Below are positions 1,303 to 22,355 of a DNA stretch of 22,355 nt, piece after piece. A model generated the notes under the pieces. That model did not search any database and was not told the origin of the DNA. It saw only the letters and a program-made list of their open reading frames with translations. Source of the DNA: a virus. The translations under genes were made by a program, and so were the position numbers. The DNA is taken from IMG/VR virus record IMGVR_UViG_3300035179_000067, positions 1-22,355 of that record; one strand, given 5' to 3'. Position 1 is the first letter of the stretch; each line of letters opens with the position of its first letter.

Positions 1303-1310
1303 TGATGGCA

Positions 1311-6579: not shown

Positions 6580-6590
6580 TAAATAAATAT

Positions 6591-6621
6591 AGAGGGGGAG
6601 GATTCGACGTTCTTCCCCTCT
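6591..6621 (+). promoter_or_regulatory. Strong stem-loop directly after the capsid gene
   Basis: Bases 6591-6602 pair with 6610-6621: seven G/C-rich Watson-Crick pairs (AGAGGGG/CCCCTCT), then five more including two G-U. The loop is TTCGACG. No T-tract follows (AATAATAAG), so it is not a standard intrinsic terminator. It may stabilise the upstream coat mRNA 3' end or be a processing site. It ends 19 nt before the next start codon. Confidence 0.6.
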
Positions 6622-6640
6622 AATAATAAGGGAGCAATAA

Positions 6641-7087: not shown

Positions 7088-7649
7088 TGGTGGAGCATTA
7101 ATCAGTTATGAGATAAAAGATGATGAAAAGGTAAAGGCTTTATTAAAAAAGGCAGGGGAAAAAGCTAAAGATCTTAGAGTCCCTTTAAAACAATGCGGGA
7201 TATTAATGTTAGGCTCTATCGATAAAAATTTTAGAGAGGAAGGTAGACCTACAAGATGGGCCCCACTTTCACCAATGACCATAGCTATGAGAAGGAAAGA
7301 GGGTAAGGGAGCAAAGATATTACAGGATACCGGGATGGGAAAAGGCTCTATTGTTTATGAAGTCGTATCTGATCAGGAAGTCCAAATAGGAACTAGACTT
7401 GATTATATGAGGATACACCAAGAAGGTGGCTCTATTAAAATACCGGCAAGAGATATTTTTCCGGTAAAAGCGAGGGCTCTACACTGGGTTGATCCTGACA
7501 CTGGGGAAAATGTTTTTGCTATGCACGTTCACCAGAAGGCAAGGACTGCCAAAATACCCCAGCGTAAATTTCTACTCTTCCAGGAAGAGGATAAAACAAA
7601 TATAGTCAGGATCTTCACCGAATATTTAGAGGAGATAACTAAGGAATGA
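7080..7649 (+). CDS. Phage virion morphogenesis protein (Mu gpG-like)
   Basis: 189 residues with the family pattern: FREEGRPTRWAPLSPMTI, then a short KILQDTGMGKGSI segment, VQIGTRLDYMRIHQEGG and a late IPQRKFL. Members sit at the head-tail joint and are needed for virion completion or tail attachment. Translationally coupled on both sides: an 8-nt overlap upstream and an ATGA overlap with the next gene at 7646. Confidence 0.88.
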   Translation: MTNGGALISYEIKDDEKVKALLKKAGEKAKDLRVPLKQCGILMLGSIDKNFREEGRPTRWAPLSPMTIAMRRKEGKGAKILQDTGMGKGSIVYEVVSDQEVQIGTRLDYMRIHQEGGSIKIPARDIFPVKARALHWVDPDTGENVFAMHVHQKARTAKIPQRKFLLFQEEDKTNIVRIFTEYLEEITKE

Positions 7650-8300: not shown

Positions 8301-9749
8301 ATGCCACAAGGAAACAGAGGACACATAGGAATCAAAAAAGAATTAATTTGGGGACAGAAGGAAGCAGGGGATAATGATTTTTACTTACCGTTTGTTAGTG
8401 AAACCTTAATTGCAAATATCGAAGATGTTTTATCTGCTGCCCAAAGGGGAATACTTGACGAGCCAATATCATATCAAGGAGAAAGGGCTTTCGCTGGTAA
8501 TGTTATTGTGGAAATACATCCTGCAAGTTTAGGACACCTATTAAGAAGTGCAATTAATGAACCAGCAGCGGCTACCCCGGCAGGTACAGCAGAAACCGAG
8601 ATAGAGGATTGTGAGGATAAATGGGACGAGTCAGTAGACGGTGGAGTAATATCTGAGGTAGATGCAAGCGATTATAAAAAAGGAACTAAATCGGTAAAAT
8701 TGCGAGTTACTTCTGGAGTAACAGCGGGGACTATTTTAGCCACCGAAGCAATTGCTTCTCATAATATGACCGCTTCAACCCATATAAAATTATGGATCAA
8801 ATGCTCGGTTGAAACTGCCTTAGGAGGTTTACAGTTCTTGCTCGATGATACACCTAATTGTGCCACACCGCTTGAAAATTTAAATATCCCGGCTTTAACC
8901 GCTGGAGTATGGAAAGAGGTAACTTTAACCATTGCTACCCCAGCAGGATTGACCGCTGTAATCAGTATGGGCTTAAAATATGTAACCGATTTAGGGGAAT
9001 GTGTTATTAATCTTGATGTTATCCGGAAGATAACCATTACCGGAGCCACCAATACTAAACAGCATATCTTTATTCCTAGACAGGCTACCGATTTTCATGT
9101 AGATTGTCCAATTAATCCCTATACCTTAGAGGTTTACCGGGATCAAGGGGATGCCTTCCAGTTTTTAGGGGCAATAGTTAATACCTTAGCTTTAAATTTC
9201 TCTACTACTGATAAAATCTTAAAGGCTACTAATGGAATCATTGCTAAGAATCTAGGCGATACACCAAAGACCGGTTTATCACTTGAAACTACCAAACCTT
9301 TTACCTGGGAACAGGCAGTTATTAAAATAGGTGGAACAGCAGAAGGAAATATTAATAATGATCTGGAAAGTTTCGGGATAAATTATGATAATAAATGTGT
9401 AGGAAAATATGCCCTGAATAATACCACTATACTCAGGAAGATTGTTCGGAGTGGCTTTAGGACTATTCCAGTCAATTTCACCATCGATTTTGTAGATCGG
9501 ACTGAATACAATAAATTTATAAATGGAATTGAGCAGTCCTTCCAGGTTAAATTTGTAGGGGCGGAATGTGAAACCGGATATTATTATACCCTGCAAATCG
9601 ATATACCTAAACTTAGATACCTGACCTATCCAATTAATATGGGTGGACCAGGACCGATAGTTTGTGGAGTTACCGGCAAAGCCAAATACGATGCAAGTTT
9701 AGGATATCCTTATAAAATTACCCTGATTAATCTTGAACCAGAGTATTAA
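8301..9749 (+). CDS. Major tail tube protein with an inserted jelly-roll (CBM-like) domain
   Basis: 482 residues, longer than the usual 200-350 of tube proteins. The tube fold is split: residues 1-~95 (RGHIGIKKELIWG, then SYQGERAFAGNVIVEIHP) and ~253-482 (FIPRQATDFHVDCPINPYTL ... GAIVNTLALNFS). Residues ~99-244 look like a carbohydrate-binding jelly-roll: EDCEDKWDES, GTKSVKLRV, HIKLWIKCS, LQFLLDD, GVWKEVTLTI and ECVINLDVIRKI. This order (damage-type start, strand pairs, W-x-x-V strand, final LD-I strand) is that of CBM-type modules. It would project from every tube ring. SD AAAGGAGCTGAT precedes the ATG. The tube call is by position and general pattern; the insert is by motif reading. Confidence 0.75.
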   Translation: MPQGNRGHIGIKKELIWGQKEAGDNDFYLPFVSETLIANIEDVLSAAQRGILDEPISYQGERAFAGNVIVEIHPASLGHLLRSAINEPAAATPAGTAETEIEDCEDKWDESVDGGVISEVDASDYKKGTKSVKLRVTSGVTAGTILATEAIASHNMTASTHIKLWIKCSVETALGGLQFLLDDTPNCATPLENLNIPALTAGVWKEVTLTIATPAGLTAVISMGLKYVTDLGECVINLDVIRKITITGATNTKQHIFIPRQATDFHVDCPINPYTLEVYRDQGDAFQFLGAIVNTLALNFSTTDKILKATNGIIAKNLGDTPKTGLSLETTKPFTWEQAVIKIGGTAEGNINNDLESFGINYDNKCVGKYALNNTTILRKIVRSGFRTIPVNFTIDFVDRTEYNKFINGIEQSFQVKFVGAECETGYYYTLQIDIPKLRYLTYPINMGGPGPIVCGVTGKAKYDASLGYPYKITLINLEPEY

Positions 9750-9784
9750 TATTAAAGTAATTTGGATCAGAGTGTTTCCTAGTT

Positions 9785-9809
9785 GGTTAAAGGGGTGGTT
9801 AAAAAGGGT
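9785..9809 (+). repeat. 12/13-nt tandem direct repeat
   Basis: GGTTAAAGGGGT (9785-9796) is followed at once by GGTTAAAAAGGGT (9797-9809). It sits at the start of the 300-nt gene-free gap after the tail tube gene, just before the cluster of ATTTnAGGGGTA motifs. Function unknown; could be part of the same protein-binding array. Confidence 0.5.
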
Positions 9810-9835
9810 ATATAAGTGTACCAAAAGAAATTTAG

Positions 9836-9912
9836 ACCCCCCTCAGAATACGAATTTGAGGGTATATTTTTAATTAAATTATAGAAAATGCCTTATATAT
9901 CATAACTTTTAG
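9836..9912 (-). repeat. Copy A of a 77-nt inverted repeat (partner 20401-20477)
   Basis: The reverse complement of this segment aligns without gaps to 20401-20477 with 61 of 77 identical positions. Conserved blocks are CTAAAAGTTAT, TATATAAG, TTTTCTATA, TTCGT and TGAGGGGGGT. Similarity continues patchily beyond (the ATCATACGTG and TTTAGGGGTA blocks). The segment is wholly non-coding in both places. Confidence 0.8.
9840..9870 (+). terminator. Probable terminator after the tail tube gene
   Basis: CCCTCA (9840-9845) pairs with TGAGGG (9857-9862), followed by TATATTTTTAATTAAATT. The stem extends by about two weaker pairs. The T-tract is interrupted, so it may be partial, which would reduce transcription between the highly expressed tube gene and the chaperone. 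It overlaps the 77-nt repeat. Confidence 0.5.
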
Positions 9913-10049
9913 CTTTTTTTAAGATTTTGAGGTTATAAAAGGTACATAAAATCATACGTGGTAAGATAAATTATCGTTATTTTGGGGATAAATTTTAAAG
10001 ATTTAGGGGTATTCTGAGCTAATTATCTAAAAGAAAGAAGGGGAGTATT

Positions 10050-10436
10050 ATGTCTAAAATTAAAGAAGTTAAAAAATCAAATATTATTGGTGGAGATAAA
10101 AGTTATAATCCAAATGTTACCGAAGAGGAAGTTTTTACTTCTCCAGTTAAAATAGGGAATAAAGAGTATATCATTAAACCTCTTTCTATGCTGGATATCA
10201 AGAAATTAAATATAGAAAAAAAGAAAGTAAAAAATGAAGATGAAATAACGGTTTATGATTATAGTTTCTATACCTTATTGCATGTAATTAAGAAGTTTAA
10301 TCCGGAAGCAAAAGATTTAACCGTAGATGATTTTGAAGATATGATTGATGTTGATGATTTTGAAAGAGTGCAAAAAGCGATCGTGCAAATATCTGGATTA
10401 AAAAAATATTTCAAGCCGGGGAATTCCAAAACATAA
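10050..10436 (+). CDS. Tail assembly chaperone, short form (gpG-like)
   Basis: 128 residues, acidic, with DYSFYTLLHVIKKFNPEA and a helical C-terminal part (VDDFEDMIDVDDFERVQKAIV). It lies between tail tube and tape measure, the invariable place of tail assembly chaperones that coat the tape measure during tail assembly. It has SD AAGGGGAG before ATG. Near its end is the heptamer A AAA AAA, from which a longer -1 frameshift product (10050-10594) can be made. Call by position, composition and frameshift architecture. Confidence 0.8.
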   Translation: MSKIKEVKKSNIIGGDKSYNPNVTEEEVFTSPVKIGNKEYIIKPLSMLDIKKLNIEKKKVKNEDEITVYDYSFYTLLHVIKKFNPEAKDLTVDDFEDMIDVDDFERVQKAIVQISGLKKYFKPGNSKT

Positions 10437-10594
10437 CAAAGGTATTATCCTTTGCCTATAATTATGGGTATAGAGACATTTTGGCAATTCCCCTAACTGA
10501 TTTAGACTGGATAATGAAAGATGCTCTTGAAGTCTATAAATTAAAAATGACTTTCTATAAAGCATTCTTGGCTTTTGTTGGTGTAAAGGAATAA
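10050..10594 (+). CDS. Tail assembly chaperone, -1 frameshift product (gpGT-like)
   Basis: At 10400-10406 the zero frame reads TTA AAA AAA, giving the slippery heptamer A AAA AAA. In the -1 frame the sequence stays open from there to TAA 10592-10594. It encodes about 62 further residues, including VLSFAYNYGYRDILAIP, LTDLDWIMKDALEVY and TFYKAFLAFVG, and gives a product of about 181 residues. No start codon or SD introduces this frame separately, so frameshifting is the simple explanation. A small hairpin, CAAAGG/CCTTTG (10437-10454), lies 30 nt downstream. This matches lambda gpG/gpGT, where the T extension binds the tube protein. Confidence 0.85.
10400..10406 (+). promoter_or_regulatory. Slippery heptamer A AAA AAA for -1 frameshifting
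   Basis: Seven A in the phase X XXY YYZ relative to the chaperone frame, 10-11 codons before its stop. A -1 slip joins the zero frame to an otherwise unannotated open frame ending at 10594. Confidence 0.8.
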
Positions 10595-10603
10595 CTTTTT
10601 ATA

Positions 10604-10632
10604 TGGAAAATAATGCTCGAAAATGGTATAAT
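10604..10632 (+). promoter_or_regulatory. Probable promoter of the HNH gene
   Basis: TATAAT (10627-10632) is preceded by TGG at 10624-10626, an extended -10. TGGAAA (10604-10609; 4 of 6 to TTGACA) lies 17 nt upstream. Predicted start is about 10639, 40 nt before the HNH ATG. A separate promoter fits an independently acquired selfish gene. Confidence 0.6.
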
Positions 10633-10678
10633 ATAAGCGTTAGGAGCATATTATATCATAGAGGGAATGGTAAAATAG

Positions 10679-11236
10679 ATGGGAACATTAATAAATTTAG
10701 TGGGACAAAAATTTAATAGATTAAATGTAATTAAGCGAGCTGATAAAGATAAATGGGGAAATGCAACGTGGTTATGCAAATGTGAGTGTGGAACAGAAAA
10801 AGTTATTGCTGGGAATGACTTAATAAATGGCAATACCAAGAGTTGCGGCTGTTTGAGAAATGAACGTGTGAGAGATGCAATAGGATTAAAGCCAGGACTT
10901 GCGAATATGCGAGCATTAATAAGTAGTTATAAAAAAGAGGCAAGAAGACGGGGACTAGAATATAAATTAACAGAAGAGCAATTTTCTGAATTAACCCAAA
11001 TGGATTGCCATTATTGTGGAGCAAAACCAAATGGGATATTTAATGATAAGGGTTGTAATGGAAAATATATTTATAATGGGATTGACCGAATTGATAACAA
11101 TAGAGGATATACAATAGATAATATAAATTCTTGCTGTAAGTGGTGCAATCAGGCAAAAAGTAATCGAACATTACAAGAATATAAAGATTGGATTAAAAGG
11201 TCTTATAATAAAAGGTTTGGTGATAATATTATTTAA
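10679..11236 (+). CDS. Free-standing HNH homing endonuclease
   Basis: 185 residues. The N-terminal domain has the common start LINLVGQKFNRLNVIKRA and a Cys-rich finger (WLCKCECG ... KSCGCL) used for DNA recognition. The C-terminal nuclease has CHYCGAKP, GIDRIDNNRGYTIDNI and CCKWCNQAKSN, a zinc-stabilised HNH variant. The gene sits between the frameshifted chaperone and the tape measure, both of which are intact, so it is not inside an intron. Its own promoter is at 10604. Such enzymes cut genomes that lack the insertion and spread by repair. The only SD candidates (GAGGGA, 10661-10666) are weaker than those of its neighbours. Confidence 0.92.
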   Translation: MGTLINLVGQKFNRLNVIKRADKDKWGNATWLCKCECGTEKVIAGNDLINGNTKSCGCLRNERVRDAIGLKPGLANMRALISSYKKEARRRGLEYKLTEEQFSELTQMDCHYCGAKPNGIFNDKGCNGKYIYNGIDRIDNNRGYTIDNINSCCKWCNQAKSNRTLQEYKDWIKRSYNKRFGDNII

Positions 11237-11250
11237 AGAGGTGAAAAATA

Positions 11251-13239
11251 ATAGCAGATCTGTGGGTGAACATTCTTGGAGATGCGAGTAAATTAAAAGG
11301 TGAACTTGATAAAGCCAGTGGCCATGTTAGTAATTTTTCTGAAAAGATAGGTTCTATCGGTAAAATTGCGACTATTGCCGGGGCTGCAATTACCGGGGCT
11401 TTTACTGCTATTGTGTATAAAACTGCTCAAGCTGGAGATCAATTTAATGATATGAGTTTAAGGACTGGGGTATCAGTAGAACATTTATCAACCCTTGCTT
11501 ATGCAGCTGAACTGTCAGGAACAAATATTGAAGGGTTAGAGGTAGGATTAAAATTTTTAACTAAAGGTATGGATGATGCCTCTAAGGGAACTGGAACAGC
11601 AAAAGATGCCTTTGAGGAATTAGGAATATCTGTTGTAGATGCAGAAGGTAACTTGAGACCCACCATTGATGTCTTAAAAGAAGCTGCTACCAAAATTGCT
11701 GAAATAGAAAATCCTGCTAAACAGGCAGCTTTGGCTATGGATTTATTTGGAGCAAGGAGTGGTACTCAGTTAATTCCTTTACTTAAAGAAGGTGGAGCAG
11801 GTATAGAGGAATTAATGGGAAAGGCTAAAGATTTAGGTATTGAAATATCTACCAAATCGGCACAGGCAGCTGATGAATTTAATGATAAAATGACCAGTTT
11901 AACTGGAAGTTTAGCTGGGGCAGGAAGGACTATTGGAGATGTTTTAATTCCAGCAATTATTCCCTTAATTGAAAAAGCTACCGAAATAGTCGGTAAAATT
12001 TCACTTTGGGCAGAAGAAAATCCCAGATTGATTGAGACTATTACAAAAGTTGGTGCGGTAGTAGGAGTTATAGGTGCAGTAGGCGGGCCTATTTTATTAG
12101 CCGTATCCGCATTTAGTAAAATATCAGGGGCTATATCCGCAATAGGAACTATTTCAACTGGACCAATAGGTTTATTACTGATAGCTGTCGGTGCGGCTTA
12201 TTGGGCTTGGAAAAATTGGGATAAGATAGTTGACTTTGTTCAAGATTGGTATAAAAAGATAATAGGATTTCTCACCGATCTTAAAGATATGGCAATACAA
12301 AAAGTTCAAGAGATGATAGATTGGATAATTCAAAAGTTTGAAGATTTAGCTAATCTACCTAAAAAGATGCTTGACTGGGGTAAAAATGCAGTTTCAGGAT
12401 TTGCTGATGGAATTAAAAATAGTACAAGTAAGGTGTTTGGTAATGTTGAAGATCTTGGGCAGGGGATTAAAGACCGTTTGGGTTTTTCGTCTCCACCTAG
12501 AATAGGACCGCTTTCTACTTCTGACCAATGGATGCCTGATATGATGGCTATGTTTGGAGATGGTATTACTAATAATATGGATTTAATATTGGAGCCTCTA
12601 AAATATACTGGCGAGAAGATGGAAGAAACTGTTAATAATACCACTTCTGCTATTGGTGATCTTATATCTGACTTAAAAACTGCTATGGAAAGCGGATTAA
12701 GTGATGCTTTTTATAATATCCTTTCTGGGACTAAAACCTTCGGGGAAGCCATGAAGGATCTTTGGAAAAGCACGATAAATGCCATTCTTCAACAGATAGC
12801 GAAACTTGCAGCCTCCTGGGTAGTTAAATTGATCTTTGGGGTCGTTGGATTTGAAACTGGCGGTATAGTTAAAGAATTTCAGTTTGGTGGAGAAGTGAAA
12901 AAGTTTCAATTTGGTGGAATGACAGATACAGTAATGGCGGCAGTAACTCCTGGTGAGTATATTTTGTCAAGGCCAATGACAGATTTTATTAAGAGATTTA
13001 AGATGATCCCCTCTAATTTAATTGATGCTATTGCTAAAGGTTTACCTACTCCGGTCCCCGCTTTTGCTGGTGGTGGACCAGTAGGGATTCCGAATATTAC
13101 TGCGCAGGGTTTTGGAGAAACCAAAATATATATCGATATTCATGATAATAGGATCTCTGACAACGTAGATATTAAGAGGTTGGCGGTAACCATAGGCGAT
13201 GAGGTATTAAGAAAAATAGAATTAAAAAGGAGACACTAA
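11251..13239 (+). CDS. Tail tape measure protein (ATA start proposed)
   Basis: About 662 residues; sets tail length and is threaded into the tube. Visible features: an N-terminal WVNILGDASKLKGELDKASG segment, hydrophobic segments (ITGAFTAIVYK; VGAVVGVIGAVGGPILLAVS; GPIGLLLIAVGAAYWAW), the LGFSSPPRIGPL motif, and a C-terminal FETGGIVKEFQFGG / VKKFQFGG repeat followed by VMAAVTPGEYILS. In-frame TGA at 11242 limits the start. SD AAAGAGGTG (11235-11243) is 7 nt from ATA 11251, giving M-ADLWVNILGD. The first ordinary start, GTG 11266, is 22 nt from the SD. At ~0.15 nm per residue the tail would be about 100 nm. Confidence 0.88.
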   Translation: MADLWVNILGDASKLKGELDKASGHVSNFSEKIGSIGKIATIAGAAITGAFTAIVYKTAQAGDQFNDMSLRTGVSVEHLSTLAYAAELSGTNIEGLEVGLKFLTKGMDDASKGTGTAKDAFEELGISVVDAEGNLRPTIDVLKEAATKIAEIENPAKQAALAMDLFGARSGTQLIPLLKEGGAGIEELMGKAKDLGIEISTKSAQAADEFNDKMTSLTGSLAGAGRTIGDVLIPAIIPLIEKATEIVGKISLWAEENPRLIETITKVGAVVGVIGAVGGPILLAVSAFSKISGAISAIGTISTGPIGLLLIAVGAAYWAWKNWDKIVDFVQDWYKKIIGFLTDLKDMAIQKVQEMIDWIIQKFEDLANLPKKMLDWGKNAVSGFADGIKNSTSKVFGNVEDLGQGIKDRLGFSSPPRIGPLSTSDQWMPDMMAMFGDGITNNMDLILEPLKYTGEKMEETVNNTTSAIGDLISDLKTAMESGLSDAFYNILSGTKTFGEAMKDLWKSTINAILQQIAKLAASWVVKLIFGVVGFETGGIVKEFQFGGEVKKFQFGGMTDTVMAAVTPGEYILSRPMTDFIKRFKMIPSNLIDAIAKGLPTPVPAFAGGGPVGIPNITAQGFGETKIYIDIHDNRISDNVDIKRLAVTIGDEVLRKIELKRRH

Positions 13240-13240
13240 A

Positions 13241-16051
13241 TTGGGTATAACAATTAAAATCGGTGGGGTAGATAAAACCGAATATGTGGATGCCCGGACC
13301 CTTAGCATAAGAGATGAGCTAACCAGTAAAGTTAATTCAGCTTCCTTTGATTTTATCTGTAATGATATAGCGGTTGCCCCCATTCCTGGAGAGGCAGTTT
13401 TAATCGAAGAAGGGGCTAATAAACTATTTTCAGGAAGGATCTTATCCAAAGAAGAAAGTTTTTTGCCCCCTAATCTCTTGAAATATCCGGTTGAATGTAT
13501 AGATCATACCCGGGATTTAGATAAAAAATTAGTATCTGAATCCTATAAAAACCAAAAAGCCGGGGACATTTATAAACATATAATCGATAATTATACTACT
13601 GGTTTTACTTATAATAATGTAAGTGATGGCCCCATTATAAGTGAAATAGCCTTCGATTATGTGCAAGTATCCGAAGTCCTAACCAAAATAACTGAAATTT
13701 GCGGTTATGAGTGGTACGTGGATTATGACCAGGATATCCATTTCTTTAGTAAAAATACTTACCCGGCCCCTTTTCAATTGGATGATAACCAAGCAAATTA
13801 TAAAGACTTAATAATTAATACTAATATCTCTCAATTAAGGAATAGGATATATGTAAAAAGTTCAGCATTAGAAGATACTTTTGGAGAAATTTTTATTTAT
13901 GATGGTGTGACTACGGAGTGGACTTGTAAATTTGCACCTATTAACCGGGGGCGTGAAAAATTACCAGACCCTGACCCTAAACCAGCGCGGGGGGTTTGGA
14001 GATGCGATTTTTCCCATGATGATATTTATTTGGCAGTACCTTATGAGAAGGTCATTGCGGCAAATAAGGGTATTTATATCTATAAAAGAGAAGGGGATTC
14101 GTTTAAAAGGTTAAACTTTCCTGACGTTACCCCTAATGATGATGGGCATGATGCTTCTTTCTCTCCTGATTCTACTTATTTGGCGGTAGTACACGCTGGC
14201 ACACCATACATGATGATTTATAAAAGAGTAGAAGATACCTTCACTAAATTAACTAATCCTGATATATTGCCTACCGGAACAGGCTGGGGCTGTGATTTTT
14301 CCCCTGATGGCGTTTATTTAGCAATAGCTCACAATGCTTCACCTTATATTACTATCTATAAAAGAAGTGAAGACACTCTTACTAAACTTGGCAATCCTGC
14401 CAATTTACCCACTGGAGATGGTTTTGGATGTAAATTTTCTCCTGATGGTGTTTATTTGGCGGTGGCTCATAATATTACCCCATTTATTACCATATATAAA
14501 CGTGATGGCGATACTTTTACCAAATTAGATAACCCTGCTACTTTACCTACTGGATGGGGATTTAATATAACTTGGACACCTGATTCTATTTATTTAGCGG
14601 TAGGTCATGAAGTATCACCTTTTATTACGGTATATAAACGAGCTTTAGACGTATTTACTAAAATAACTAATCCTGCTGAATTACCTACCGGGCCCAGTTA
14701 TGGCGTAGATTTTTCTCCTGATGGGATACAATTAGCAGTTGCTCATTCTACTACACCTTTTATAACTATCTATACTCGTACGGGCGATATTTTAGGTAAA
14801 CAAGTCGACCTTGCTTACTTGCCTAATGGTGACGGTCGTGGAGCCACATTCTCTCATAATGGTAAATATTTAGTAATAGGACATATGGCTGATCCCTATA
14901 TTATTATATATAAACAGTCTTCTCCTACCATAAAGGTGGATGGAGTAATTAAAACAATCGGTTGGGATGAGGTAGACAATCCACTTTATTATGATTTTAT
15001 GTTAAATGAGAAAACGAAAGTATTGTCCATTGGGGCGGCAGGTACTCAAATAATTGATATCGGGATTTTACTAATTAATCCAACAGCGGGTGGAAACCCA
15101 AACTTTACACATATAAATAAAGACAATCCAGCTAATGCAACCGGAAAAATTACACAAATAAGAATAGATGTAAAAGAAAATTTATCTAATTGTAAAGTTG
15201 CTACTTTCTATCGTCCTGACCCAGTAGGATTTCCTAATAATCTTTCTACCAGAGATGCGCAAACTATTGGGACTGTAATAGTGGGGTTACAAACCCTTGA
15301 AGTTGATTTAAATGTGGCAGAAGGGGATTATATAGGCATTCATTATACTGCTGGTAAAATTTGGGCAATGAATTCGGGATATGGTGGTCAATGGTATATT
15401 AATGAAGATAAAATACCCTGCACAAATCAAACTTTTACATTTGACGAAGGCGATGCAGCAAGTATTTATGGCACAGGAAGTATTGGGGAAGGAGAATTAA
15501 CTATAGGAAGTGAATTACTTGTTGGTTATACTACCTTCGGAGTACCCATTTGTTTTAAACGAGAAGATAAAAATTCCATAGACGCTATTAAGGCTATTGA
15601 AGGTGGGGACGGTATTATTGAATTTTGCTTGGTAGATAATAATATTGATAGTATAGCCTGGGCCAATGAAGCGGCTAAAGCAGACTTATTACAGAATGCT
15701 AATCCGATTATTCAAGGAACTTTTATAACTAACAGGAGCGATATCTGGAGCGGTCAGATAATAACACTTATTTCTACCAAAAGGAATATAAATCAGCAAT
15801 TTATAATCCAAAAGGTAGAATTGGTAAGGGTCGATGTGCTTACTGAATGGCCTACCATACCTTATAAACCTGCTATTGAGGCGGTAATAGGATATAAACC
15901 TACCAGTGAAGCAGAGAAGGGATATAGGGCTGCCGGGGATAGTGGCGGGATCATATATTATATTTTCAATGTCACTATTGCAAATAAGTTTAGAAAATTG
16001 GAGGATCTGTTTATCTATTTATTAAACCGGACTGATGAGAGCTTGAAGTAA
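13241..16051 (+). CDS. Tail hub / tip protein with an inserted seven-bladed beta-propeller and a second inserted domain
   Basis: 936 residues from a TTG start (AAAGGAG 8 nt upstream). Residues 1-~245 resemble the tail hub (gp27/Mu gp44-like) N-terminal part, with YPVECIDHTRDLDKK and VLTKITEICGYEWYVDYD. Residues ~248-563 are a seven-bladed WD40/YncE-like propeller with blade pattern FSPDGVYLAVAH ... PFITIYKRxxDTFTK. Residues ~595-747 are a second insert with LSTRD, DYIGIHY, IPCTN and IYGTG, homologous to the protein at 18165. The hub resumes at ~755 (NSIDAIKAIEGGDGIIEF) to ~865 (FIIQKVELVRVDVL). The inserts probably bind the host surface, making this both the tip plug and the receptor-binding protein. 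It directly follows the tape measure gene. Confidence 0.8.
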   Translation: MGITIKIGGVDKTEYVDARTLSIRDELTSKVNSASFDFICNDIAVAPIPGEAVLIEEGANKLFSGRILSKEESFLPPNLLKYPVECIDHTRDLDKKLVSESYKNQKAGDIYKHIIDNYTTGFTYNNVSDGPIISEIAFDYVQVSEVLTKITEICGYEWYVDYDQDIHFFSKNTYPAPFQLDDNQANYKDLIINTNISQLRNRIYVKSSALEDTFGEIFIYDGVTTEWTCKFAPINRGREKLPDPDPKPARGVWRCDFSHDDIYLAVPYEKVIAANKGIYIYKREGDSFKRLNFPDVTPNDDGHDASFSPDSTYLAVVHAGTPYMMIYKRVEDTFTKLTNPDILPTGTGWGCDFSPDGVYLAIAHNASPYITIYKRSEDTLTKLGNPANLPTGDGFGCKFSPDGVYLAVAHNITPFITIYKRDGDTFTKLDNPATLPTGWGFNITWTPDSIYLAVGHEVSPFITVYKRALDVFTKITNPAELPTGPSYGVDFSPDGIQLAVAHSTTPFITIYTRTGDILGKQVDLAYLPNGDGRGATFSHNGKYLVIGHMADPYIIIYKQSSPTIKVDGVIKTIGWDEVDNPLYYDFMLNEKTKVLSIGAAGTQIIDIGILLINPTAGGNPNFTHINKDNPANATGKITQIRIDVKENLSNCKVATFYRPDPVGFPNNLSTRDAQTIGTVIVGLQTLEVDLNVAEGDYIGIHYTAGKIWAMNSGYGGQWYINEDKIPCTNQTFTFDEGDAASIYGTGSIGEGELTIGSELLVGYTTFGVPICFKREDKNSIDAIKAIEGGDGIIEFCLVDNNIDSIAWANEAAKADLLQNANPIIQGTFITNRSDIWSGQIITLISTKRNINQQFIIQKVELVRVDVLTEWPTIPYKPAIEAVIGYKPTSEAEKGYRAAGDSGGIIYYIFNVTIANKFRKLEDLFIYLLNRTDESLK
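13984..14930 (+). repeat. Seven tandem beta-propeller blades, 138-nt period
   Basis: The Phe/Trp codon opening the FSPDG-type motif occurs at 14009, 14159, 14297, 14435, 14573, 14711 and 14849. The last six are exactly 138 nt (46 residues) apart; the first interval is 150 nt because blade 1 has four extra residues. Each blade ends in a (N/D)P-x-LPTG-like turn. Seven repeats is the number that closes a WD40-type ring. Confidence 0.9.
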
Positions 16052-16080
16052 TTGTAAAATATAAGAAAAAGATTTATAAT
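16052..16080 (+). promoter_or_regulatory. Probable promoter of the lipoprotein cassette
   Basis: TTGTAA (16052-16057), a 17-nt spacer, TATAAT (16075-16080). It begins on the base after the hub stop codon. Predicted start is about 16087, 70 nt before the first lipoprotein ATG. A copy of the iterated motif, ATTTTAGGGGGTAT (16137-16150), overlaps the SD of that gene. Confidence 0.65.
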
Positions 16081-16155
16081 ATTGATGGTAACTTCCCCTT
16101 ACTTATATCGTATTATATATTGGTAGTTTAAAGATAATTTTAGGGGGTATAAGCA

Positions 16156-16602
16156 ATGAAAAGGAAAGTTAAGAAAATTTTGTTAGTGGTCTTTGTCATA
16201 TTTTTAGTTTTAGCATTGGTTGGTTGCCAGCCTCATTTCCTTGATGGAATGGAAATTGAAGATTGTGCAGAAGATTTCGTTTATAACTATTGGATAGCAA
16301 TGATCAATCGGCAATATGAATTAGCCAAATGGTATTGTATAACTAACGGAGTCTGGTATAACAAGACTGACGAGTGGGAAGAATATATCAATACTAATTC
16401 TGAGGGTGAAGCCTCAGTATTAGTTTATTTTAATTATTTTTATAAACCAGCTGAGGTAGTCGGAAATAATATCATTGTGTATGCGAAAATTTCTGTTGAT
16501 AAAATAGCTTTTCCTGATAGTTATGAAATACTTGTTGATACCTTTGAATATGAAATGGAAGTAATTGAGACCCCGCCCCTTGGAAGGTTGAAACTTAAAT
16601 AA
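16156..16602 (+). CDS. Phage-encoded lipoprotein, paralogue 1
   Basis: 148 residues. A basic start (MKRKVKKILL), a hydrophobic stretch and the lipobox LVGC (Cys at ~24) show a type II signal peptide, so the mature protein is lipid-anchored on the cell surface or membrane. The mature part has VYNYWIAMINRQYELAKWYC and a DxWEEYIN segment, like small NTF2/SnoaL-type domains. It is clearly related to the next gene. Preceded by its own promoter and SD AGGGGG. Lipoproteins of prophages (Sie/Ltp, T5 Llp) block superinfection at the surface; that role here is inference. Confidence 0.8.
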   Translation: MKRKVKKILLVVFVIFLVLALVGCQPHFLDGMEIEDCAEDFVYNYWIAMINRQYELAKWYCITNGVWYNKTDEWEEYINTNSEGEASVLVYFNYFYKPAEVVGNNIIVYAKISVDKIAFPDSYEILVDTFEYEMEVIETPPLGRLKLK

Positions 16603-16631
16603 AATTTAAAAATAGGTGAGGGATAAAGGTA

Positions 16632-17084
16632 ATGAAAAGAAAATTTTTAATATCATTCTTGATTATACTTTTAATTTTGGCCTTAACCGGTTGCGTGGTT
16701 GCTCCGGAATTAACTGATAGGTTCTTGGCAGAAGAAGCAGTTTATAACTATTGGCAGGCGATCATTAATCGGCAATATGAATTGGCTAAATGTTACTGTA
16801 TAATTGGCGGAATTTGGTATAACAAGGTTGATGAGTGGAAAGAATATATCAATATTAATTCTGAAGGTGTGTGTTCCTTCCTACTGATTTTTCTCGATGA
16901 TTTTTATAAACCGACTGAGGTAATTGGAGATACTGCTATTGTATATGTAAGAATTATTGCCGATAAAATAGTTGTTCCCTGTAAAAAAATGGATGGAGAT
17001 GGAATAGATATTATTGATGTCTTTGAATACGAAACAGAATTAATTAAGCAAAATTACCCATACGGAAATTGGGAACTTAAATAG
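16632..17084 (+). CDS. Phage-encoded lipoprotein, paralogue 2
   Basis: 150 residues with signal MKRKFLISFLIILLILAL and lipobox LTGC. The mature part mirrors the previous gene: VYNYWQAIINRQYELAKCYC, GIWYNKVDEWKEYI, NSEG, DDFYKPTEVIGD and VFEYETELI at matching positions, so the pair arose by tandem duplication. Extra cysteines (CYC, VCSF, VPC) are present. Spacing to the first copy is 29 nt and an intrinsic terminator follows at 17121-17171, closing a two-gene transcription unit. Not recognised as a named family. Confidence 0.8.
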   Translation: MKRKFLISFLIILLILALTGCVVAPELTDRFLAEEAVYNYWQAIINRQYELAKCYCIIGGIWYNKVDEWKEYININSEGVCSFLLIFLDDFYKPTEVIGDTAIVYVRIIADKIVVPCKKMDGDGIDIIDVFEYETELIKQNYPYGNWELK

Positions 17085-17120
17085 AGTCTAAAAATTAAAT
17101 AACTTTAGAGCTCCATTTTT

Positions 17121-17171
17121 AGAGAGCCAGATTTTAAAAAGGTTTTTGACCTTTTAGATCTGGCTTTTTTT
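17121..17171 (+). terminator. Intrinsic terminator after the lipoprotein genes, sharing its 5' arm with the one at 1405
   Basis: AGCCAGAT (17125-17132) pairs with ATCTGGCT (17158-17165), with an inner AAAAGG/CCTTTT helix and T17165-17171. The stretch GAGCnCCATT, 2-4 nt, AGAGAGCCAGATTT (from 17108) matches that from 1395. The inner helices differ in sequence but both pair. It lies 28 nt before the start of the next gene. Confidence 0.85.
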
Positions 17172-17198
17172 ATTAAATAAATGAAAGGAGAGATTAAG

Positions 17199-18146
17199 AT
17201 GTTTAAAAAAAGAATATGGTTTGGAATTATTTTGTCAATTATCTTACTGGTATTTAGCATAAATGGCTTTACCGCATATTACAAATATACCCAGGAATCA
17301 GGGACTAATTTTTATGTGGGTACTGCTGATAAGGCCGATGCCATGGAAGATACTAATGAGGTTAGGCAAATACTCGATGATTTAGGGAATTTATTGGGTC
17401 ACTCAAAAAGAGATGATCTATACCCTAAAAATGGTACTACCGGCGGGTATTTGGGCCGGTTAAATTATGGGATAGATGCCTCTAAATCTGCTGTTCCGGT
17501 GGTAAATGATATGTATTTAGCCACTGATACTGTTAAGGTTTACCGGTGTTTTGTGGCTGGGAACTGGGTCCAGGTATATCCGGTAACAATAGAAAATAAC
17601 GTTATCAAGACAGGTGATTTTACTGCTGGAAGGATTACAAAGATAAATAATGCTACTGGAATTATAGAGGAAGGGACTAATACCGATACGGATGTGGCTG
17701 ACGCGATAACAAAGAAGCATAGCCAAAACACCGATACACAGTTTGACTTTTATAATGCTTTAGCTTCTGATCATACTTGGAGTGGAGACAAAGATACCCA
17801 ACCTGTTGGGGAAGGTGTACATTTCGGACAATTATTATATTTTAACTGGACAGATAAAGAGTGGAAATTAGCCAAAGCAGATGTTTCAATAACTATGCCA
17901 GGATCAAGAATAGCTCTTGAATCCAAAGCCGATAGCGAGGCTTGTCTAATGTTAGTCAAAGGCTATATCAGAGATGACTCTGCTTTTGAGTTTGCAGGGG
18001 CGATGGTTTACGTTTCTGCGGCAACGGCAGGAGCTATTACTTCTACTGCACCAAATACGGCTGGACAGCAAGTGCAAAGGGTAGGAGTGGCAAAATCTGC
18101 CGATGTTTTATTCTTTGATCCATCCATTGACGTAGGAGAGATTTAA
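17199..18146 (+). CDS. Tail-fibre-like protein with an N-terminal signal segment
   Basis: 315 residues. ATG 17199 is preferred to in-frame ATG 17181 because AAAGGAGA (17184-17191) is the SD, 7 nt before 17199. Residues 1-~28 (MFKKRIWFGIILSIILLVFS) look like a signal peptide or anchor. The rest resembles fibre proteins: GYLGRLNYGIDASKSAVPVV, YLATDTVKVYRCFVAGNWVQ, then DAITKKHSQNTDTQFD, typical of collar/fibre regions. The C-terminal beta domain is VGEGVHFGQLLYFNWTDKEW ... SALVYVS-type ending in QVQRVGVAKSADVLFFDP. A hydrophobic N-terminus is odd for a virion fibre. The gene follows a terminator, so expression may depend on readthrough. Confidence 0.7.
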   Translation: MFKKRIWFGIILSIILLVFSINGFTAYYKYTQESGTNFYVGTADKADAMEDTNEVRQILDDLGNLLGHSKRDDLYPKNGTTGGYLGRLNYGIDASKSAVPVVNDMYLATDTVKVYRCFVAGNWVQVYPVTIENNVIKTGDFTAGRITKINNATGIIEEGTNTDTDVADAITKKHSQNTDTQFDFYNALASDHTWSGDKDTQPVGEGVHFGQLLYFNWTDKEWKLAKADVSITMPGSRIALESKADSEACLMLVKGYIRDDSAFEFAGAMVYVSAATAGAITSTAPNTAGQQVQRVGVAKSADVLFFDPSIDVGEI

Positions 18147-18164
18147 TTAGAAAGGAGAATAATA

Positions 18165-18749
18165 ATGAAAAAATTTATTATAGGTTTAACCGTATTGTTA
18201 ATATTTTTATTAACCTTTAATGTAGTAGGTTTTTCTACGATAATTGATATAGGTGCAGCTGCAACAAACAGAACCAGTGAAAAGTTTACAGGAACATATA
18301 TGGTTATTGTTAATCCAGCCGATGGAACTGGAAAAATCACCAGTGTAGAAATATATGCTGTAACTGGCTATAACTTGACACTCGTAGAAGTGGCGACCTT
18401 CTATGTTGTAAGTGGAAATTTTCTTTCTACCAGAGATTGGGAATATATTGGAAATGTAACCGCTGGCTCTAAGCAAACTTTTGTTGTTGACCTTGATGTG
18501 GTAGCAGGAGACTATATTGGTATATATTTTGCTTCGGGGGGGAAAATAGAAGCAGACTCTACTGGAACTTATATGTCTAAAGCTGGAGATAATATACCCT
18601 GTACAAATGTAGAATTTGGCAGCCCAGTAGCTGGCACAATAAGTTTATATGGGACAGGTGAGACAGTTGCAGCAGGGATCAAATGGAATACTGTAACTAT
18701 CTCTAAATGGAATGGGCAAGTAATTACAAAATTAAATGGAATGCAATAA
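18165..18749 (+). CDS. Exported fibre-like protein sharing a domain with the tail hub
   Basis: 194 residues. MKKFIIGLTVLLIFLLTF is a probable signal peptide. The body is paralogous to hub residues ~595-747: shared segments in the same order are TGKIT, VATFY, LSTRD, DYIGI, IPCTN and YGTG. The C-terminal WNTVTISKWNGQVITKLNGM is a tail-protein ending seen in many phages. SD AAAGGAG precedes the ATG and the previous gene ends 18 nt upstream, so both fibre-like genes are probably co-expressed. It may be a secreted copy of the receptor-binding domain or a virion part with an unusual N-terminus. Confidence 0.7.
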   Translation: MKKFIIGLTVLLIFLLTFNVVGFSTIIDIGAAATNRTSEKFTGTYMVIVNPADGTGKITSVEIYAVTGYNLTLVEVATFYVVSGNFLSTRDWEYIGNVTAGSKQTFVVDLDVVAGDYIGIYFASGGKIEADSTGTYMSKAGDNIPCTNVEFGSPVAGTISLYGTGETVAAGIKWNTVTISKWNGQVITKLNGMQ

Positions 18750-18763
18750 AGGGGTTGAGATAA

Positions 18764-19099
18764 ATAGAAGGGATCGAATTAGGTAAAGCAATAGCCGAAT
18801 ATGGGATACCAATTATAACCGGTATATTCTTAGTATTGGTTTGCTGGCTGGTTAAATACCTTATTACTCAGCAGACCAAGGACAGAAATACTTTTATGAA
18901 TATGTTTCAGAATGAATTAAAAACACTTCATAAAGATAGCTTACTGAATGCTAAATTAAACCGCAAAAGTATAAGTATGCTGGGGACTTTAACCGAGTAT
19001 CTCAATAGACATTTTAATGGATGCACTGATAAGGTAAATTTTGAGAAAAAAACTGATGAAAAAGGATCATTAAAAAATGTCAGGCGATCTTTCAACTAA
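18764..19099 (+). CDS. Small membrane protein, BhlA/UviB-like holin candidate (ATA start proposed)
   Basis: 111 residues: (M)EGIELGKAIAEYGIPIIT, one transmembrane segment (GIFLVLVCWLVKYLI, residues ~19-33), then a charged, probably coiled-coil tail with many Lys. This resembles BhlA/UviB-type holin-like proteins found before lysis enzymes. In-frame TAA at 18761-18763 directly precedes ATA 18764. The SD-like AAAGGGG (18748-18754) is 9 nt upstream. No ATG, GTG or TTG occurs until TTG 18836, which would delete the start and half of the membrane helix. It overlaps the M15 peptidase gene by 23 nt. Confidence 0.65.
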   Translation: MEGIELGKAIAEYGIPIITGIFLVLVCWLVKYLITQQTKDRNTFMNMFQNELKTLHKDSLLNAKLNRKSISMLGTLTEYLNRHFNGCTDKVNFEKKTDEKGSLKNVRRSFN

Positions 19100-19385
19100 T
19101 TTCTGGAAGTGGGAGTTTAGATGCCCTTGTAAAAAATGTAGAAGGAAAAAAGTTAGAGTAAGCAGTCTATTGTTATTCAAATTAGAAATGGTAAGGATGG
19201 CTTTTGACGGTAAACCGGTAATTGTATTAAGTGGAAACCGTTGTCCTGAAGAAAATAAAAGGGTAGGTGGCTATCCTGATTCTGAACATATACCTAATCC
19301 GGATGGGGAGGGTTCCGATATTAAAATAAAAGGGGTAAAGCCTATTGATATCGGATTGGCTGCTGAAGAGATAGGATATATATAG
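19077..19385 (+). CDS. M15-type peptidase (D-Ala-D-Ala carboxypeptidase-like endolysin), C-terminally short
   Basis: 102 residues beginning DLSTNFWKWEFRCPCKKC, the usual start of phage M15_3 peptidases, with IVLSGNRCPEENKRVGG and SEHIPNPDGEGSDIKIKG, which supply the first zinc ligands (His and Asp). Family members continue ~25 residues further through a GIGxY...HxD segment holding the last zinc ligand. Here a TAG stop follows EEIGYI, so that ligand is missing. The -1 frame after the stop stays open for 28 codons but does not contain an HxD motif. It would cleave peptidoglycan peptides if active; activity is doubtful. Confidence 0.75.
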   Translation: MSGDLSTNFWKWEFRCPCKKCRRKKVRVSSLLLFKLEMVRMAFDGKPVIVLSGNRCPEENKRVGGYPDSEHIPNPDGEGSDIKIKGVKPIDIGLAAEEIGYI

Positions 19386-19484
19386 GAAATAAAATTATCT
19401 ATTCTGTACCTATAGAGAATAATAGCTTGATAAAATTCTATAAAATAATAACCGGAAAGAATATTTGATACTAATTTAAGTTTG

Positions 19485-19490
19485 TATAAT
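19485..19490 (+). promoter_or_regulatory. Possible -10 box upstream of the small gene at 19518
   Basis: A perfect TATAAT sits in a 130-nt gene-free gap, 28 nt before the next start. The nearest -35-like TTGATA (19465-19470) is only 14 nt upstream, which is too close. A weak candidate. Confidence 0.3.
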
Positions 19491-19517
19491 AATATTTAAG
19501 AAAGGAAGGTGAAAAAA

Positions 19518-19718
19518 ATGGCATATCTATCTGTTGATTACAAGAAAATAATGGAAGAATTTGAAAAATGGTTGGAAAGTAAGTGTGCGTCCATTGAAGT
19601 TAAGAAAGTGCAAGACAAATTTTTGTCTATCAAAAAAAAGTACACAACTGTTGTAGGGGTAGGAAAAGATAAGGGAAGTATTGGAATGATAGGAAAATCA
19701 AATGAAGAGATAAAATAA
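19518..19718 (+). CDS. Small hypothetical protein in the lysis region
   Basis: 66 residues, not recognised. The start is ATG 19518; the in-frame GTG 19509 is part of the SD AAAGGAAGGTG (19501-19511). The N-terminal two-thirds is helical and charged (VDYKKIMEEFEKWLESK ... VQDKFLSIKKKY), followed by a short Gly-rich end (VVGVGKDKGSIGMIG). No signal peptide or membrane segment. It lies between the M15 peptidase and the holin. A lysis regulator or antiholin is conceivable but nothing in the sequence shows it. Confidence 0.65.
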   Translation: MAYLSVDYKKIMEEFEKWLESKCASIEVKKVQDKFLSIKKKYTTVVGVGKDKGSIGMIGKSNEEIK

Positions 19719-19721
19719 TAA

Positions 19722-19745
19722 TTAATTAATATTTTTATTAATTAA
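19722..19745 (+). promoter_or_regulatory. AT-only hairpin before the holin SD
   Basis: TTAATTAAT (19722-19730) pairs with ATTAATTAA (19737-19745) around a six-base loop. It sits between the previous stop and the SD AAAGGAGAT of the holin gene. It could modulate holin translation; the stem is weak. Confidence 0.35.
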
Positions 19746-19765
19746 GAAAGGAGATAATAAAAATT

Positions 19766-20203
19766 ATGGCAACAATTATATTTGCTTTTGTCTATAAATA
19801 TTTTTTTGCCGCACTATTAACATTTGTTGTGGGTATGTTTTCTAAAGCTTTAATAAAAGATTTTGGAAATGATAGAGCAACAAAAATAAAAGAAACTATT
19901 CTATCGGCTATGTTATGGGCAGAAGAACAATTCGGAATAGGAAATGGTAATCAAAAGTGGGAAGAAGCCTGGAAGAAAATTAGAGAATTGTTAGCAGTTC
20001 AAGGAATTACTTTAACAACCGAAGAAGTTCCTGTTGTGGAAACTCTAATGAAATCTAATGTTCCTCAAATTAACGCTATAACATATTCCGCCTTACCAGA
20101 AGCGGATTTACAAGTTAGAGATATAAAAAATAGAACCCCTGAAGCTACATTACTTATTGAAGAATTAAAAAAGAAATATCCAGAAAATAAAGTTTCAAAA
20201 TAA
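19766..20203 (+). CDS. Phage holin, LL-H-like
   Basis: 145 residues. One N-terminal transmembrane segment (IIFAFVYKYFFAALLTFVVGMF) is followed by a soluble helical tail with AMLWAEEQFGIGNGNQKW, KIRELLAVQGITLTTEEV and VETLMKS. This is the layout of LL-H-type holins: membrane helix, AEQ.F-like helix, glycine, then a GI-T-EE-V...IE segment. The C-terminal ~40 residues are charged and extended. Holins form pores that release the endolysin. Together with the BhlA-like gene and the peptidase it defines a lysis block. A terminator at 20261 closes the late operon. Confidence 0.75.
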   Translation: MATIIFAFVYKYFFAALLTFVVGMFSKALIKDFGNDRATKIKETILSAMLWAEEQFGIGNGNQKWEEAWKKIRELLAVQGITLTTEEVPVVETLMKSNVPQINAITYSALPEADLQVRDIKNRTPEATLLIEELKKKYPENKVSK

Positions 20204-20245
20204 ATAATTGCTCACCACCAACCTGCACCATGAGTGCTTTTTCAT
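20195..20245 (-). CDS. Possible 16-codon micro-ORF on the minus strand
   Basis: On the minus strand GGAGG (20258-20254) is 8 nt before ATG (20245-20243). The frame codes MKKHSWCRLVVSNYLF and stops at TGA 20197-20195, inside the holin 3' end. The terminator hairpin 20261-20288 lies just 5' of the SD. The ribosome site is excellent, but no minus-strand promoter is evident and the peptide is unrecognised. It could be a leader peptide or chance. Confidence 0.3.
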   Translation of the reverse strand: MKKHSWCRLVVSNYLF

Positions 20246-20260
20246 ATTAATTACCTCCAA

Positions 20261-20295
20261 AACCCCTGCGTCTTTAAGCGCAGGGGTTCATTTTT
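20261..20295 (+). terminator. Intrinsic terminator of the late operon
   Basis: AACCCCTGCG (20261-20270) pairs perfectly with CGCAGGGGTT (20279-20288) around TCTTTAAG, then CATTTTTATTTAT. It lies 57 nt after the holin stop. On the opposite strand the T-run is only TTTT, so termination is mainly rightward. Confidence 0.88.
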
Positions 20296-20300
20296 ATTTA

Positions 20301-20519
20301 TATCCCTAAAATCGCTAAGCCTACCCCTCAAATTATCATTTCTTTACTCTCGATAGCCCTTTATCTATCACCTGTCATATACCCTAAATTTATAAAATAA
20401 CTAAAAGTTATAGTATATAAGCCTTTTTCTATATTTAGACTAAAATTAGATCTTCAATTTCGTCATTTGAGGGGGGTATTTTACCCTTTCACGTATGATC
20501 ATAAGCGACCCCTCAAAAT
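20301..20519. repeat. Cluster B of the iterated motif ATTTnAGGGGTA in the control region
   Basis: The gap 20204-20757 (554 nt) has no + strand gene. Motif copies: minus strand at 20301-20312 (ATTTTAGGGATA), 20322-20333 (ATTTGAGGGGTA), 20380-20389 (ATTTAGGGTA) and 20508-20519 (ATTTTGAGGGGT); plus strand at 20465-20478 (ATTTGAGGGGGGTA). The 10-mer AGCGATTTTA brackets the region in inverted orientation (20307-20316 and 20586-20595). The rest of the gap is AT-rich DNA (20595-20680) and the early promoter. Confidence 0.6.
20401..20477 (+). repeat. Copy B of the 77-nt inverted repeat (partner 9836-9912)
   Basis: Ungapped match, 61 of 77, to the reverse complement of 9836-9912. The 3' part can fold: CTTCAA pairs with TTGAGG, and the corresponding arms in copy A are CCCTCA and TGAGGG. 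The base changes between copies keep pairing as G-U when read in this orientation. Confidence 0.8.
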
Positions 20520-20562
20520 TTCTTACCACCAGCGATCCTGGAGCATCTTCAAAAATCAAACA

Positions 20563-20583
20563 AACCCTTTATATATAAGGGTT
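20563..20583. promoter_or_regulatory. Inverted repeat AACCCTT-N7-AAGGGTT, operator candidate
   Basis: A 7-bp perfect inverted repeat with centre TATATAT, about 100 nt upstream of the early promoter. The symmetry fits a dimeric repressor site. There is no T-run. Confidence 0.45.
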
Positions 20584-20681
20584 ACAGCGATTTTAAGTAA
20601 AAAATCATCAAAAAAATTTAATTTTTAGTATATAATTATATGAAAATAAGTAAAATATTTTATATTATTTACAGAAAATAC

Positions 20682-20710
20682 TTGACAAAGTTTGAAAAAG
20701 GGAGTATATT
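20682..20710 (+). promoter_or_regulatory. Early-operon promoter
   Basis: TTGACA (20682-20687), 17 nt, TATATT (20705-20710). Predicted start is near 20717, within the tandem 8-mers TTAGATAA/TTAGATAG (20715-20730). Drives the small genes from 20758. AT-rich DNA (20595-20680) upstream may act as an UP element. Confidence 0.85.
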
Positions 20711-20757
20711 ATTATTAGATAATTAGATAGAGGATATAAATAAGGTGGTATAAAAGG

Positions 20758-21039
20758 GTGGAAAAGAGAGAATTTGAGGAAATGTGTAAAAAAGCAGGAG
20801 TTAAAAAAGAAGATTTATGCGATACGGTTTTTACAAGACAATTTAAAGAGGCCGATAAAATGAGAATATCACGACAAAGAATAATAAGATTAGCTAATTT
20901 ACTTGATATAGAATTTTTTAGAACTTATTTTGCCTGGACTTTCTATTATGATAATGGGGAATATCAATTTATTAACCCACATAAAAATTTGAAAGCATAT
21001 AATTTTTTGATTGAAATAAAAGGGAGGGTTGAAAAATGA
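20758..21039 (+). CDS. Hypothetical early protein 1
   Basis: 93 residues, GTG start with SD AAGGTGG 9 nt upstream. Not recognised. Two regions: a helical N-terminal part (FEEMCKKAGVKKEDLCDTVF ... RISRQRIIRLANLLDIEFF) that could be a small DNA-binding or adaptor helix bundle, and an aromatic part (FAWTFYYDNGEYQFINP). It is the first gene after the early promoter and shares ATGA with the next gene, so both are translated together. First genes of phage early operons often act on host or phage regulation; here that is only context. Confidence 0.75.
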   Translation: MEKREFEEMCKKAGVKKEDLCDTVFTRQFKEADKMRISRQRIIRLANLLDIEFFRTYFAWTFYYDNGEYQFINPHKNLKAYNFLIEIKGRVEK

Positions 21040-21948: not shown

Positions 21949-21963
21949 ATTTTTGGGGGTTAG

Positions 21964-22034: not shown

Positions 22035-22223
22035 ATGAATATCGACCTAAGCAAATTAAGAGAACTAAGAGAAAAAGCTGGTTTGACTAGAAGAGATCTT
22101 GCCGATAAAATTGGTTGCCGGGAACATACCATTATTAGATGGTAAAATGGAAAGAATAAGAAACCATTATCACCATATCGGAAAGAGTTAGAAAAGTTTT
22201 ATTCGGAAATGTTAATAAAATAA
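22035..22223 (+). pseudogene. XRE-family helix-turn-helix regulator interrupted by an in-frame TAA
   Basis: The frame reads MNIDLSKLRELREKAGLTRR DLADKIGCREHTIIRW, then TAA at 22143-22145, then NGKNKKPLSPYRKELEKFY up to TAA 22221. XRE proteins have W-E-N-G at that point (GAA), so a single G-to-T change explains the stop. The 36-residue product would have helices 1-3 only. It cannot be a different genetic code, since other genes in the window end in TAA. It may be a decayed repressor, a sequencing error, or a truncated product. An in-frame TGA directly before ATG 22035 fixes the start. Confidence 0.7.
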
Positions 22224-22265: not shown

Positions 22266-22295
22266 ACTATTTACTTTACATAAGATATATTATAG
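22266..22295. repeat. Copy 2 of the 30-bp AT-rich inverted repeat
   Basis: Partner of 1311-1340 (26 of 30). The tail of the window, 22224-22355, holds no gene that can be supported on either strand. Confidence 0.35.
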
Positions 22296-22355
22296 GACGT
22301 TGCAAAATTATAAAAAATAGGTTAAAGTTCCTCGAACACCATTTTATTTTTTATC

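Follow-up and report, generated by a model that had tools for sequence, protein, structure and literature searches.

What do the two long gene-free gaps of this phage DNA hold, and why should both be rich in the same short asymmetric motif? The question arises from a phage record of 22,355 bases (IMG/VR record IMGVR_UViG_3300035179_000067, the whole of which we call the window) that is apparently a fragment, the left part of the phage genome lying outside it. Its genes run from a truncated terminase through portal, head and tail genes, lipoproteins, an M15 peptidase and a holin to a short early block, and every gene called is on the plus strand. Gap A (9750-10049) separates the tail tube gene (8301-9749) from the gene at the tail chaperone position (10050-10436), and gap B (20204-20757) follows the holin gene. 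Both hold the same composite element, once in each orientation. We think, with middling confidence and from sequence comparison, that this element most likely is, or derives from, the attP-like attachment or recombination region of a tyrosine recombinase, and that the protein binding its arms is probably also a regulator.

In a repeat search, 9836-9943 and 20370-20477 match as an inverted pair with 75% identity over 108 nucleotides (nt), and blastn relates A to B at E about 1e-15. When A is aligned to B in reverse complement, the likeness reaches about 200 base pairs (bp), both distal motifs included. In each copy the left arm has motif copies that face each other around CCCCCC; a 23-bp centre, GCCTTATATnnnATAACTTTTAG, comes next, followed by a right arm in which the motif copies are direct repeats; in alignments of A, B and their homologues, motif copies stand both left and right of the centre, as putative binding sites. 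The features of the two gaps are as follows.

9829-10020, plus strand: element A, the full composite of left arm, centre and right arm (nhmmer profile, 143.8 bits, E 1.4e-42, A being a seed of that profile)
9836-9849, minus strand: first motif copy of the A left arm, ACCCCCCTCAGAAT as read on the plus strand (sequence, alignment)
9853-9865, plus strand: second motif copy of the A left arm, AATTTGAGGGTAT (position weight matrix, PWM, 17.8)
9890-9912, plus strand: conserved centre of A, GCCTTATATATCATAACTTTTAG, an imperfect inverted repeat and putative recombination core (alignments of 7 and 11 elements)
9924-9936, plus strand: motif copy right of the A centre, ATTTTGAGGTTAT (sequence, PWM)
9962-10012, plus strand: right arm of A, with direct repeats TAAGATA, ATTTTGGGGATA (9979-9990) and GATTTAGGGGTAT (10000-10012), about 20-22 bp apart (nhmmer, alignment)
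20300-20498, minus strand: element B, a full copy like A but inverted, with the hairpin of the late operon on one side and the conserved early control region on the other (nhmmer, 128 bits, E 9.8e-38, also a seed)
20401-20423, minus strand: conserved centre of B, GGCTTATATACTATAACTTTTAG (alignments)
20301-20333, minus strand: right-arm repeats of B, ATTTGAGGGGTA (20322-20333) and ATTTTAGGGATA (20301-20312), as read on the minus strand (motif scan)
20379-20395, minus strand: motif copy beside the B centre, TTATAAATTTAGGGTAT (PWM)
20463-20518, both strands: facing left-arm sites of B, ATTTGAGGGGGG (20465-20476, plus) and TTTTGAGGGGTC (20507-20518, minus), conserved in the relatives G007, G017 and G023
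20440-20757, plus strand: early-operon control region overlapping the B left arm, with TTGACA (20682-20687), 17 bp and TATATT (20705-20710), 79-81% identical to G007, G017 and G023

A and B are 61% identical, and in a weakly supported tree they are no closer to each other than either is to the elements of other phages; a recent internal duplication is not supported on this ground. If our reading is right, each gap would be a single composite site for protein assembly, made of a motif-bearing left arm, the imperfect palindrome and a tandem motif-bearing right arm. The recombinase would act at the 23-bp centre. The asymmetric motifs of the arms would be bound by a second, small DNA-binding protein in an accessory role, and this protein would probably also regulate the tail and early operons from the operon starts.

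Why a recombinase, when the window encodes none? The answer lies in other phages, gathered through the tail tube gene (26 loci), the recombinase, the core pattern and a companion open reading frame (ORF), and with genes called by a simple script in place of curated annotation. An nhmmer profile built from seven copies (A and B of the window, G006 and L067-L070) recovers nine full copies outside the window, in G006/L057, L066, L067, L068, L069, L070, L104, L107 and L129, at about 70-183 bits; L066, L104, L107 and L129 lay outside the profile seeds. All nine are found just downstream of the gene for a 192-residue tyrosine recombinase or of an ORF of about 71 residues that follows that gene (the stretch examined in L104 and L129 shows only this ORF), and no more than about 120 nt separates the recombinase stop from the start of the element in L069, L070 and L107. 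The association holds even in L107, where the recombinase is 47% identical to the query and the terminase is a different one. The recombinase matches Phage_integrase (E 4e-26) over a catalytic domain and nothing more, with the R, K, H, R, H and Y catalytic motifs conserved. It is because homologues of the element adjoin this catalytic-domain-only enzyme in other phages that we favour an attP-like origin. A blastn search of element A against annotated phages gave a single chance match, and a genome scan for the recombinase returned distant recombinases only.

Related recombinases also tend to have a site in this position. Among loci encoding homologous recombinases in other phages, CANAATATAAGATATG (with at most three mismatches) occurs downstream in 25 of 76, versus 1 of 76 control stretches, mostly about 100-165 nt from the recombinase, the 25 loci falling into a few related groups and not being 25 independent events. 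Five chromosomal homologues from Bacillales have the palindrome TAACAAAATGNNNATTTTGTT downstream. Both sites differ in sequence from the element centre, and what such comparisons support is the position of the element, not its sequence. A 10-mer, TATAAGATAT, that seemed to be shared between the Firmicutes recombinase site and the elements was dropped, the PWM of that site giving no match to the centre, and the many unrelated loci with GGCTTATTTTTTATACCTT that a core-pattern scan also returned were discarded.

The arms, for their part, are also kept on their own. The right arm alone stands in the gap between tail tube and chaperone genes, at the head/tail boundary, in 20 of 23 relatives with a contig that spans this gap (nhmmer, 29-53 bits). 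Its direct repeats are about 20-22 bp apart in the alignment, and it persists in relatives with another type of gene downstream. It is 75% identical there, against 61% at synonymous sites and 57% in the upstream neighbouring gap; this slower change than at synonymous sites points to a probable second role in regulation. The left arm occurs alone on the minus strand at the B position, the lysis/early boundary, in G007, G017 and G023, and it also adjoins the recombinase in G007/G008/L061. Motif-like clusters are confined in the window to A and B and found in relatives mainly at the same boundaries; the arms recur at operon boundaries with putative promoter activity. Because the arms are conserved without the centre or a detectable recombinase, the protein that binds them is probably also a regulator. 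The element looks like a site ordinary in kind and unusual in arrangement, partly reused at gene-block boundaries. RNAalifold predicts no pairs for 11 elements or for 17 tail-gap sequences, which favours a function at the DNA level; a structured RNA leader was rejected because both alignments lack conserved secondary structure. An Rfam search of the window returned nothing above the gathering threshold.

Which protein might bind the arms? The window offers two small candidates.

20758-21039, plus strand: ORF of 93 residues (p20758), a possible element-associated protein, sharing 59-75% identity over about residues 3-29 with the C-terminal portion of the ORF of about 71 residues
21703-21906, plus strand: ORF of 67 residues, modelled as two helices after an extended stretch and compatible with a ribbon-helix-helix (RHH) protein, a candidate binder only at B (mean predicted local distance difference test score, pLDDT, 68.8)

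The ORF of about 71 residues sits between recombinase and element in other phages. The structure model of p20758 (mean pLDDT 51.9) is too weak to read or to use in a fold search, and for the RHH-like protein there is no Pfam match and the model is again too weak for a fold search. The earlier note on this DNA, made from its letters alone, had put forward the RHH protein, or the intact relative of the XRE protein, as candidate binders of the motif. The RHH gene was found only in the window, G007, G017 and G023 and is absent from most phages with a right arm, so it is not the binder in the other right-arm relatives. As a general binder the ORF of about 71 residues falls in the same way, occupying a different subset of genomes and being absent from most right-arm phages. 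A conserved protein resembling a helix-turn-helix protein by eye (G007, 25579-25926) is a further candidate. The XRE-type ORF of the window (22035-22220) has an in-frame TAA after about 36 residues, through which G007, G023 and G012 read.

Several observations weigh against an attachment region. The recombinase lacks the N-terminal domain that in lambda Int binds arm sites, and the 22-kilobase (kb) window has no recombinase gene. G009 and G023, which have the terminase type of the window, are apparently complete by end overlaps and keep the right arm, give no Phage_integrase match. The palindrome at the centre is imperfect and was recognised by eye, and a PWM of the Firmicutes recombinase sites (CANAATATAAGATATG-type) fails to pick it out. 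Scans of viral contigs for one-sided centres of attL or attR type gave only unrelated DNA, with no integrated copy or host junction. With neither a host junction nor a binding protein found, recombination at the centre is something that we infer.

The alternative that survives best, and to which we would give a real but clearly smaller chance, is pure transcriptional control, in which a regulator binds the clusters at the starts of the packaging, tail and early operons and the element merely follows the recombinase gene with no recombination at all. This would explain the position of the right arm just before the tail operon in 20 relatives, among them some with a downstream gene of a different type, its conservation above synonymous sites, its retention in phages with no detectable recombinase, and the position of the left arm ahead of the early promoter. 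It accounts less readily for L069, L070 and L107, which share the upstream recombinase, yet differ in the sequence after the element; moreover, the right arm of B points away from any gene called, and the element centre has no recognisable promoter.

Could the element instead be a replication origin, a partition centromere or a packaging signal, with iteron-like repeats bound by an initiator, a ParB-like protein or the terminase? The tandem repeats about 21-22 bp apart would suit such a role, several elements lie upstream of a terminase gene, and L070 encodes near its element, at 6318-7327, a ParA-like ATPase followed by an RHH protein, a pair that suggests a plasmid-like lifestyle for L070. 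We consider such a role improbable, since the window lacks ParA, the two copies are inverted and 10 kb apart, and the element follows the recombinase or companion ORF even in L070, L104 and L107, where more than 1 kb lies between it and the terminase. An equally improbable extension of the attachment-region reading is that a catalytic-only tyrosine recombinase, the phage's own or another's, uses att-like sites to invert or exchange whole structural modules, whose transcription would also be timed by the arm-binding protein. The arrangement invites the thought, as the whole block from tail to lysis genes (10,021-20,299) lies between the full inverted elements A and B, and in relatives the same boundaries are occupied by single arms.

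Less probable still is a non-autonomous mobile element, or a functionless boundary sequence that homologous recombination maintains where modules join; the presence of copies at several such boundaries, and an A-B identity no higher than that to other phages' elements, are in line with this idea, and the purifying selection on the right arm speaks against it, as does the lack of terminal repeats or target duplications visible by eye. Last comes stoperator-like immunity, in which an L5-type repressor on asymmetric intergenic sites would halt elongating polymerase, and which we regard as very unlikely because the motif, though asymmetric, intergenic, clustered and at conserved positions, occurs in both orientations when the genes are nearly all on the plus strand, is arranged as inverted pairs in the left arm, and is found at a few boundaries and not at more than 20 sites.

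It was the stoperator analogy that the earlier note had proposed, on the strength of ten scattered motif copies, and the counts deserve a closer look. The window holds one exact copy of ATTTnAGGGGTA (20322-20333, minus strand) and one copy with a single mismatch (20301-20312, minus strand), all the rest having at least two. Allowing at most two mismatches gives 24 matches over the whole window against 15.4 expected, a number reached in 2 of 100 shuffles and so barely above chance; the two gaps hold 8.2 such matches per kb and the rest of the window 0.79 per kb, and in local shuffles (n=500) gap B exceeds all of them and gap A alone gives P about 0.09. The clustering in the two gaps is real, as had been claimed, and the single copies are weak, the consensus being loose. 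Both gaps hold one and the same element in opposite orientations, so each set of five mostly repeats the other, and the ten copies are not ten separate sites. As for the PWM check that the earlier note had suggested, a PWM from relatives matches coding DNA too, and one from two-site alignments finds no more in the window than in shuffles at moderate cut-offs, so that single motif copies are not to be trusted. A further copy at 16137-16150 does coincide with the Shine-Dalgarno region of a lipoprotein gene and is conserved in relatives in that capacity; a variant near 21949 is conserved in none of G007, G023 and G012. The expectation that relatives would keep the motif in place holds for part of the sites, namely the right arm in the tail-tube/chaperone gap (20 relatives) and the left arm at the B position (three), and to that extent the broader proposal, that the gaps hold clustered sites for a DNA-binding protein, is supported: a phage protein probably binds these sites.

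Other features of these phages are worth recording. Otherwise similar phages have two terminase types (G023, G009, G005 and the window versus G007 and G006), one with the recombinase upstream and one without, as in an exchangeable packaging cassette. Directly after element and recombinase, L107 (3871-4257) has about six degenerate repeats of about 37 nt at a spacing of about 73-75 nt (GTTGCAGAnTAACTTTTAGCTAAAnAAGGATTGAAAS), an array resembling clustered regularly interspaced short palindromic repeats, with several palindromic spacers and two that are near reverse complements. In gap B, an antisense Shine-Dalgarno with ATGAAAAAG (20204-20290, minus strand) follows the late hairpin and is conserved in several relatives, the reading frame itself being poorly conserved. 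Two sequences (TTTACATAAnATAnATTATAG), which we take to resemble Bacillus subtilis dif, lie at 22273-22301 (plus strand) and 1305-1333 (minus strand), with a chance expectation of about 0.25 per window; one falls within a few bases after the terminase gene, where it recurs in G002, G003, G005, G006, G007, G014 and G023, the other after the regulator block, and together they suggest Xer-dependent integration. Elsewhere, a 936-residue tail protein contains five 138-bp repeats (14165-14829; 46-residue units, FSPDGVYLAVAHN...ITIYKR), and two tandem diverged lipoprotein genes (16156-17084; 82% over 142 nt), of which some relatives have three or more copies, are preceded in many relatives by a conserved gap of about 104 nt. 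An ORF resembling an HNH-type endonuclease by eye (10679-11236) is inserted between the chaperone-position and tape measure genes.

If the attachment-region reading is true, one set of short asymmetric sites would tie a minimal tyrosine recombinase to the module boundaries of a phage, and the old question of how phages swap modules (head, tail, early) at fixed joints would become directly testable in this phage family. The stoperator reading, meanwhile, is corrected before any hunt for an immunity repressor begins.

How does the element compare with known systems? Short FimB-like tyrosine recombinases act on inverted sites, and they share with our system a length of about 190-200 residues and an inverted site pair flanking a segment; they differ in that the segment flanked in our case comprises 10 kb of tail and lysis genes and no inversion is seen in relatives. 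The L5-type stoperators are more than 20 13-mers spread over the genome and oriented with transcription (PMC9283540). They resemble our motif in being asymmetric, about 13 bp long and placed in gene-free DNA, and part from it in that ours occurs in both orientations, at few loci, around a conserved centre and linked to a recombinase. The excisionase-regulators 186 Apl and P2 Cox act both at att and at promoters, the Apl repeats lying one helix turn (10-11 bp) apart (PMC7498355). The right-arm repeats of the element are about 20-22 bp apart, or two turns, and no Apl or Cox homologue was identified; the likeness is that one short asymmetric repeated site would serve att and control regions elsewhere in the phage. 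Compared with the attP of tyrosine integrases of the lambda, L5 and 186 type, our element is unusual in its two inverted copies in one genome, in single arms alone at other boundaries, in having no host junction found, and in a recombinase so short (192 residues, catalytic domain only) that the arms would need another protein. Like attP, it has short, asymmetric, repeated sites to either side of a putative core, and in nine other phage contigs it adjoins a recombinase gene, directly or through the ORF of about 71 residues.

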